From Chloroflexota bacterium (GTDB lineage Bacteria; Chloroflexota; Chloroflexia; QHBQ01; JADMIH01), in the NCBI GenBank assembly GCA_015478675.1, contig JADMIH010000201.1, positions 1 through 6,623 of the forward strand: a stretch of 6,623 nucleotides of DNA, given 5' to 3'. Below, one piece after another: positions 3,771 through 5,288 of the stretch. How positions within the stretch are numbered: the first letter of the stretch is position 1; every line of letters starts with the position of its first letter. The notes under the pieces are model-generated. The model saw only the letters and a list, made by a program, of their open reading frames with translations, did no database searches and was not told the origin of the DNA. The translations under genes were made by a program, and so were the position numbers.

Positions 3771-5288
3771 TTACTGAATGCCTGCTTCCGATGAGAAAGT
3801 AATCTGAATAGTTGTTGGAGGTAAGAGCTTCGCATCCGCTCCTATCTTCGATTGCAGCACTCTGTGGTTGTTCGTATCGGCTATATAGAGCCGCGCTTCA
3901 TTGCCTGATGCCCACACTGAGATACCCCCCGGCTCCCACAGCTCGGTGGGGTCGCCGGAGCCGAGAAGGGTGATGCACTCTTTTGTGGATAGCTCCAGCA
4001 TCTTTATCTTGTTGTTGTAGGTGTCGGCTATGTAGACTTTGCCATTGTAGCAGGCAACACCCAGGCAATGTTGCAGGCGCACTTGCTTGCCTCTGCCATC
4101 TTTATCGCCGAAGTCGAAAAGCCCTTCGCCAAGCAGACTCTGAGTGATGCCGTCGGGGCTGAACTCAGAGGAGCGGACAGCGCTCGATTCGCTATCGGCA
4201 AGGAAAAGTAGCTGCTCGTCGGTGGTGAGGCCGCTCGGCTGGGCCAGGGCCGCGCTCAGGTTGGGACCGTCCGTTATATCTTCGCGCCCACTCCCAACGA
4301 ATGGGTTTACCACGCCTGTAGAAAGTTCCATCCGCCATAGCTGGTGAGCGCCCGCCATCGCGATATAAAGCTGATTATCCATCTCCAGCAGGTCCCAGGG
4401 TGAATTGAGAGCGGTGGCAGTGCCGATGCCGCCGGTGCGAGAATAACCCTGCTCGCCTGTGCCCGCCACTGTCTTGAGCGTGTCGGCGTTCAGATCAGCC
4501 GCCCTGACAGAGTGATTCTCCGTGTCAGCTATGAACAGTGTATTCTCCTGTAGAGCCATACCTTCGGCATGATTGAGCATAACCTCGGCGAATGTACCGT
4601 CGCGGAAGCCCGGCTCACCACTGCCTATCGTCTGCGTAACATTCGCTGATGTGCCATCGCCGCTAACATAGGCGACGAGCACGCGGTTGTGCGCCGTATC
4701 AGAGATAAAGAGGCGGCTGCCTGCGGGGTCGGCCAGCACCTTACCTGGAAAAAACAGAGGCGAGTCGCTCGGCGGAGCGGGGTCGGGGGGGAAGTGCATT
4801 GGAGCGCGGTCCAGCACACCCGACTGAGCATATACCTGCACGATCTGCCCTATAAGGGCATCGAACTCTTCAAAGGCAAACTCGCCTGAATGCCGGCCTA
4901 TATACTTGCCATCAGGGCCGACCAGCACCACTGTCGGCCATGACTGCACGTTATAAGCCCTCCAGGTGCGGAAGGCGCGGTCGTTCACCACGGGGTGAGT
5001 AACGCCAAGCCTGCGAGTGGCCGCTCGGATGTTATCCGTGTCTCGTTCGGCGATAAACTTGCCGGAATGAACCCCTATCGCTACCATTTCGCTCGCGTAC
5101 TTCTCTTCAAGCCTGCTCACGGCAGGCAATATATGCACGCAGTTGATTCAGCCATAAGTCCAGAAGTCGAGCAGGAGGATTTTGCCGCGCAGGTCGGCGA
5201 GGGTGAGAGGGTTGCCGCCGCTGTTTATCCAGTCGAGGCCTGTGGGGAACTGGGGGGCAGGGTATGCGCCCAAAAGATCGTTTACCAT
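3771..5288 (-). CDS. Thioredoxin-like/NHL-repeat selenoprotein with U-x-x-C active site (UGA at codon 47)
   Basis: A predicted 505-residue cytoplasmic protein if the in-frame TGA at 5150-5148 is read as selenocysteine. Residues 1-46 carry an AhpC/TSA-TlpA-like start (NPLTLADLRGKILLLDFWTYG). The TGA is codon 47 and is followed by INCVHILP, so the redox motif is Sec47-Ile-Asn-Cys50 where relatives have Cys-Ile-Asn-Cys. The thioredoxin fold continues to about 157 with the cis-proline motif WPT (Pro118). A proline-rich linker (163-181) leads to an NHL beta-propeller with six repeat cores, near 193 (LFISDTAHNRV), 251, 307, 361, 418 and 467 (LYIADTNNHRV). The architecture resembles animal NHLRC2 and its bacterial relatives, whose substrates are poorly known; thiol-disulfide exchange or peroxide reduction is an inference. 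The start at 5288 has GAAAGG (5305-5300) 11 nt upstream and lies 18 nt after the esterase stop. No signal peptide is seen. Alternatives are a nonsense mutation or a base error at the TGA. Confidence 0.82.
5107..5147 (-). promoter_or_regulatory. Candidate bacterial SECIS element
   Basis: Directly downstream of the UGA the transcript can form a perfect 6-bp GC-rich stem, GCCUGC/GCAGGC, closed by the 5-nt loop CGUGA (hairpin at 5127-5111). The loop spans nucleotides 27-31 after the UGA and has a G at its second position. Both match the known bacterial SECIS rules: loop about 16-37 nt from UGA and a G in the first two loop bases. A short lower stem, UCAA (5146-5143) with UUGA (5110-5107), could close the structure next to the UGA, leaving a 15-nt bulge on the 5' side. 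The element lies within the coding sequence, as in known bacterial selenoprotein mRNAs, where SelB binds it. The folding was done by eye. Confidence 0.7.
5148..5150 (-). other. In-frame UGA, predicted selenocysteine codon (Sec47)
   Basis: The TGA on the minus strand falls between TAT GGC and ATC AAC TGC. It replaces the first cysteine codon of the C-x-x-C motif, the usual position of selenocysteine in thioredoxin-fold selenoproteins. The frame stays open for 46 codons before and 458 sense codons after it. Tryptophan is encoded by TGG nearby (Trp20, Trp43), so UGA is not reassigned to tryptophan. Confidence 0.82.

Follow-up and report, generated by a model that had tools for sequence, protein, structure and literature searches.

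A predicted selenocysteine at the redox site of a thioredoxin-NHL protein from Chloroflexota, with TGA/Cys alternation among its bacterial relatives

The minus-strand reading frame from 5288 to 3771 in a 6,623-nucleotide stretch of Chloroflexota DNA (the window) very probably encodes a selenoprotein in which a thioredoxin-like domain is followed by a predicted six-bladed NHL propeller. Its in-frame UGA is likely decoded as selenocysteine (Sec), and the product is likely to be a cytosolic selenol-thiol oxidoreductase. We read it as a likely selenium-containing redox protein because the UGA occupies the position of an active-site Cys and dozens of related genes, spread over several phyla, carry a UGA at that position too. 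Sec insertion at this codon had been proposed in a first-pass annotation of the window, and it is now supported by a site that holds only TGA or Cys codons in the relatives, by a covarying hairpin linked to TGA, and by Sec machinery in the TGA genomes that were tested. These sequence comparisons give good support to Sec decoding in the family as a whole and make it likely in the window gene.

The frame opens with an ATG (5288-5286), ends with a TAA at 3771 and comprises 505 codons. As originally described, its single internal stop is the TGA at 5150-5148. This codon is residue 47 and lies between LDFWTYG and INC, at the first redox Cys position of FWTYG-C-INC. The active-site motif of NHLRC2/SOQ1-type proteins, F-[WF]-T-Y-[CG]-C-I-N-C, is therefore present with UGA replacing the Cys before I-N-C. 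A mechanical ORF call begins at GTG 5138, which is in frame and three codons 3' of the UGA, and returns 455 amino acids without the active site, the very loss that had been foreseen for a standard gene caller. The features of the gene are:

3771..5288, minus strand: predicted selenoprotein, full 505-codon frame (thioredoxin-like domain plus NHL propeller) with the UGA read through; from open reading frames, Pfam and the AlphaFold2 model
5148..5150, minus strand: in-frame UGA, residue 47, predicted Sec (first redox residue, U-I-N-C); from the sequence and TGA/Cys alternation in 153 loci
5139..5141, minus strand: Cys50 codon TGC, predicted resolving cysteine; from the sequence and the [C/U]-x-x-C motifs of relatives
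3771..5138, minus strand: truncated ORF with a GTG start and without the active site; from the mechanical ORF call, with 79 of 120 listed relatives also lacking residue 47
5300..5305, minus strand: GAAAGG, possible ribosome-binding site 11 nt before ATG 5288; from the sequence, by eye
4839..5258, minus strand: thioredoxin-like/AhpC-TSA-type domain, about residues 11-150; from Pfam and the model
4932..4940, minus strand: W117-P118-T119, expected cis-Pro motif of thioredoxin folds; from the sequence, invariant in alignment A3
3789..4757, minus strand: six-bladed NHL beta-propeller, about residues 178-500; from Pfam NHL, the model and fold matches

When the frame is read through, it matches Pfam Thioredoxin_8 (residues 35-128, 47 bits), AhpC-TSA (residues 11-128) and NHL. 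The Thioredoxin_8 match spans the TGA and confirms the earlier claim of thioredoxin-fold sequence on both of its flanks; in the truncated ORF it scores 23.6 bits, under the 27-bit cut-off. The AhpC-TSA match is weak (31.6 bits against a cut-off of 26), and no NCBIfam family scores above cut-off for the window protein. An AlphaFold2 model with Cys placed at residue 47 (mean pLDDT 93.5, pTM 0.92) has six four-stranded blades after residue 180, in agreement with the six NHL repeats counted at first sight, and the WPT motif that had been noted downstream is intact as W117-P118-T119, which is invariant in the alignment of relatives. No leader is visible by eye before residue 11, which suggests that the protein may be cytosolic. 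The peroxidatic motif PxxxTxxC of AhpC proper is not matched: T44-x-x-U47 is there, but residue 40 is Leu and not Pro.

Pfam, the model and fold matches agree on a thioredoxin-like domain followed by a six-bladed NHL propeller, as in NHLRC2/SOQ1-type proteins. Full-length SOQ1 has further domains, which are absent from the window protein. The C-terminal domain of Mycobacterium tuberculosis DipZ, which we take to be a Cys form, is a related thioredoxin-like domain. Its structures (PDB 2hyx, 5cyy) match window residues 11-173, and the sequence match stops short of the propeller of the window protein. Human NHLRC2 (PDB 6gc1, 6g7w) and Arabidopsis SOQ1 (PDB 7djj, 7djk) have Cys at the site where the window has UGA, and the mutated 7djk chain of SOQ1 has Ser there.

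In the DNA of wider relatives, the site alternates between TGA and Cys codons. A scan of genome contigs confirmed at least 424 relatives, and among the best 80 of these (loci L001-L080, 45-52% identical), the codon is TGA in 22 and TGC or TGT in 58. A second sample of 400 genomes from the phylum of a Chloroflexi genome contains 79 matches at E 1e-60. All but one of them (G259, which stops short) reach the site, with TGA in 58 and Cys in 20, and neither TAA nor TAG occurs there among the 79. Sec is the commoner state in this Chloroflexota sample (58/78). When the best 80 contig-scan relatives and the Chloroflexi-phylum loci are pooled and 8 duplicates are removed, 153 distinct loci remain: 75 have TGA, 78 have TGC/TGT, and no other codon is seen. 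The first-pass annotation had placed the TGA at the first redox Cys of the family and had named Cys or UGA at residue 47 of homologues as the point to check; the aligned loci bear this placement out.

Named TGA loci among the best 80 of the at least 424 relatives belong to Chloroflexi, Dehalococcoidia, SAR202, Ardenticatenia, Rokubacteria, Methylomirabilota and Gemmatimonadetes. Two further phylum samples were scored for matches containing one TGA, not codon by codon: this holds for 12 of 14 matches in 95 genomes from the phylum of the Rokubacteria locus L011 and for 3 of 9 matches in 150 genomes from the phylum of the Gemmatimonadetes locus L004. Parsimony on a 237-tip tree, with truncated proteins scored as Sec, gives 8 changes between Sec and Cys, and the two residues would appear to be exchangeable over evolution at about this number of switches. 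The median length behind the site is 449 residues for TGA loci (69 with the end in view) and 581 for Cys loci (76), and 27 of these 76 Cys loci also have 480 residues or fewer. In three TGA loci (L141, L142 and L157), the motif reads FWTYA-U-INC, with Ala instead of Cys or Gly before the predicted Sec.

Of the 153 loci, 75 share the TGA at this codon and all the others have Cys, which argues against a sequencing miscall or a recent nonsense mutation in a decaying gene. The window frame is also intact on either side of the TGA, and the stretch before the site is about equally conserved in the TGA and Cys loci of relatives: its 36 residues are 60.3% identical to the window in TGA loci (n = 42) and 61.9% identical in Cys loci (n = 63). 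Moreover, the same N-terminus is missing from 79 of 120 listed relatives. We consider miscall or decay highly improbable.

Genomes with TGA loci also tend to encode the machinery for Sec. Among the best 80 of the at least 424 relatives, 50 genomes were searched, comprising all 22 with TGA loci and the 28 lowest-numbered of the 58 with Cys loci. A selB match above cut-off is found in 22/22 TGA genomes versus 17/28 Cys genomes (Fisher p = 0.001, relatedness ignored), and a selA match in 21/22 versus 15/28 (Fisher p = 0.001, relatedness ignored). Transfer RNA-Sec at 59.9 bits or more occurs in 18/22 versus 18/28, which is not significant alone (p = 0.21). The 59.9-bit line was set post hoc at a seen gap, because 42 of the 50 genomes, and also 5 of 14 control genomes, clear the Rfam score of 47; in these controls, selB passes its cut-off in 2 and selA in 1. 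All three markers are missing from none of the 22 TGA genomes versus 9 of the 28 Cys genomes. In four TGA genomes, one or two of the three markers are missing, and Sec machinery is present in many Cys genomes as well. Among the selB matches, several are incomplete and one contains two stops. A search for sel genes had been suggested as a check on the Sec proposal, and in the genomes of relatives its outcome favors that proposal.

The same machinery in the tested TGA genomes bears on a possible change of the genetic code in which UGA would simply stand for Cys or Trp. The frame does require a residue at position 47, and Cys would suit, but TGA also serves as an ordinary stop in these sequences. 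In 20 of 42 TGA loci it ends the homologue of the candidate, and within the window it terminates the gene upstream of the candidate at 5309-5307:

5307..6347, minus strand: putative esterase gene (PF00756), upstream, with an ordinary TGA stop at 5309-5307; from open reading frames and Pfam

Reassignment is thus scarcely credible. Pseudogene, sequencing error and code reassignment were all rejected on the TGA/Cys pattern of the relatives and the use of TGA as an ordinary stop.

A hairpin resembling a bacterial SECIS element follows the TGA in the relatives. Its family consensus is CUUCCGC-AGUU-GCGGAAG, with a loop that begins 25 nt after the UGA. We applied basic limits that derive from published bacterial SECIS models: a loop start 16-37 nt behind the UGA, a G in the first two loop bases, and a stem of at least 5 pairs with at least 3 GC pairs. 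These are passed by 73/75 TGA loci versus 4/78 Cys loci. Strict limits (stem of at least 6, loop start 22-28 nt), which were chosen after inspecting the data, are passed by 70/75 versus 2/78 (Fisher p = 9e-35, relatedness ignored). Across the first 42 TGA loci, pairing holds in 92.9% of stem cells and is lower in every slid control. Doubly changed stem cells number 24 in these loci versus 7.8 in shuffles, and 0/500 shuffles reach the observed count. The covariation score of the named 7-pair structure is likewise reached by 0/500 shuffles, and double changes affect 4 of its 7 stem pairs, which is equalled by 6/500. Left to find a consensus by itself, RNAalifold returns a weak one (-1.14 kcal/mol, 5 pairs); the named structure scores well.

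The UGA might instead be mainly a true stop, with a restart at GTG 5138 that yields a propeller without the redox site and with Sec insertion that is minor or selenium-dependent. The position of this in-frame GTG fits such a restart, and Sec genes normally show some termination at the UGA. However, the hairpin is retained almost solely with TGA, and the N-terminal thioredoxin part shows similar conservation in the TGA and Cys loci of the relatives. We therefore judge a main role as a stop to be very unlikely and favor Sec insertion at the UGA.

The window has a candidate hairpin of its own:

5111..5127, minus strand: SECIS-like hairpin GCCUGC-CGUGA-GCAGGC, loop after 26 nt behind the UGA; from folding, near the family hairpin position

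This hairpin has a 6-bp stem and GU in the loop, and it passes the strict limits at a chance rate of 3-4% (4.1% of synonymous redraws; 14 of the 484 codon positions in the gene). In folding energy it is unremarkable (z from -0.3 to -1.1). The family motif CUUCCGC-AGUU-GCGGAAG is absent from it, and it occupies a similar place with a different stem sequence. Rfam gives just two weak matches in the window, both under their cut-offs. A CRISPR-DR8 match at 6394-6429 on the minus strand (18.3 bits versus a cut-off of 39) is most likely due to chance.

Protein relatives of the window were taken as 120 listed of 7,999 matches. Residue 47 is Cys in 41 of those listed and absent from 79, which start at query residues 51-62 in 73 cases and at residues 68-100 in 6; the latter may be cut for other reasons. 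On the tree, the 79 relatives without residue 47 form one clade of 84 with the window and four Cys proteins (P0004-P0007), and UGA conservation in this clade is judged from the truncated proteins alone. Because these four full-length Cys proteins are nested inside the truncated clade, they suggest a reversion from Sec to Cys within it. Four Chloroflexota/Chloroflexia relatives of the window carry the name 'alkyl hydroperoxide reductase'.

Covariation between residues 56 and 58, which sit on opposite arms of the window hairpin, can be followed in the proteins of this clade. When proteins that start at residue 56 or later are left out, the 55 readable proteins (54 truncated plus the window) have V-H in 25, A-R in 26 and A-S in 4, and the pairs V-R and A-H are absent from all of them. 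Three joint V-H/A switches are placed on the tree at the level of proteins, not codons. This pattern is compatible with paired codons, for example GUG with CAC and GCG with CGC. With three events that are seen in proteins only, it would support a SECIS hairpin in the window. The Cys members P0004-P0007 have V-R in three cases and V-H in one, as if freed from the hairpin.

A search of viral contigs with the window protein gave no match, and one with an alignment gave a single distant NHL-only locus. There is no window-clade match in 158 genomes of one class at E 1e-155 or in the Chloroflexi-phylum genome sample at E 1e-152. A plasmid search returned 178 records, all below 60% identity, and 2 of these cover 80% of the query.

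If Sec is inserted, then SelB with Sec-tRNA could bind the hairpin 26 nt 3' of the UGA to place Sec47. This residue would attack a disulfide or other oxidised group on a partner that the NHL propeller holds. Cys50 would resolve the resulting selenenyl-sulfide, with Pro118, which is expected to be cis, beside it. Sec may also make the enzyme more reactive.

NHLRC2/SOQ1-type proteins are probably an unrecognised and widespread group of bacterial selenoproteins. Sec would be commoner in Chloroflexota and would occur also in Rokubacteria/Methylomirabilota and Gemmatimonadetes, mostly with the near-invariant SECIS CUUCCGC-AGUU-GCGGAAG; the window clade would be separate, with a SECIS of its own and a reversion from Sec to Cys nested within it. 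If so, many members of a redox family are represented in public databases by sequences that lack the active site, and there are natural selenium versions of the architecture found in human NHLRC2 and in the plant photoprotection regulator SOQ1. Exchange of Sec and Cys in one family would provide ready pairs for asking what the redox site of these little-understood proteins acts on and why Sec is kept, and the common hairpin would allow recognition by SelB to be compared between phyla.

Sphaerobacter and Ktedonobacter are members of Chloroflexota. Homologues in these two genera are named in the S4 figure legend of PMC5330540 for an AhpC selenoprotein that uses UAG for Sec in Blastococcus saxobsidens; compared by description only, this protein may overlap with the thioredoxin-NHL type. 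A 2026 account of 119 prokaryotic selenoprotein families and subfamilies (PMC13188914), which also quotes the motif PxxxTxxC with U, has in its Table 1 thioredoxin-fold UxxC selenoproteins of the kinds Trx, Prx-like, thiol-disulfide isomerase-like and 'Redoxin family protein'. As in the window gene, Sec replaces the first Cys of CxxC in these proteins, and the UGA is followed by a bacterial SECIS. Table 1, compared by name only, includes no family named NHL or NHLRC2. Thioredoxin-NHL members are possibly hidden in its 'Redoxin family protein UxxC' or 'thiol-disulfide isomerase-like UxxC' lists, and the thioredoxin-like reads of an ocean survey (PMC2398784) possibly overlap with the family. The term 'NHL' is absent from the main text of PMC9312934, PMC12013277, PMC2398784, PMC1088965, PMC5029168 and PMC1794560. 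Judged by titles and the opening lines of abstracts, none of the papers listed by literature searches concerns an NHL/NHLRC2-type selenoprotein; a supplement or a subscription paper could name the family. The first-pass annotation knew of no described selenoprotein of this type, and this holds by name, while loosely named older list entries may include members. By name only, then, thioredoxin-NHL proteins are a new family among the thioredoxin-fold UxxC selenoproteins, one that is widely distributed and linked to NHLRC2/SOQ1.

The genes around the candidate give no functional hint: among 22 TGA loci with flanks, the commonest neighbour family is present in 4 (TenA-like by eye) and the next in 3. 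In the window, the esterase stop lies 18 bases before the start codon of the selenoprotein candidate, and the two genes possibly form one operon. A 634-aa protein at 1848-3752 on the minus strand has no Pfam match; most of its listed relatives carry PF13625, and those that are named come from Chloroflexota, including Roseiflexaceae and Chloroflexaceae, which makes this phylum the likely source of the window. On the plus strand are an ABC transporter ATPase at 3-635, which is cut by the window edge, and an ABC-2 type permease at about 636-1821. A neighbour that, judged by eye, resembles a YyaL/DUF255 protein with a thioredoxin domain occurs in 3 of 22 TGA loci (L042, at 7510-9558, and two more) and in 0 of 58 Cys loci.
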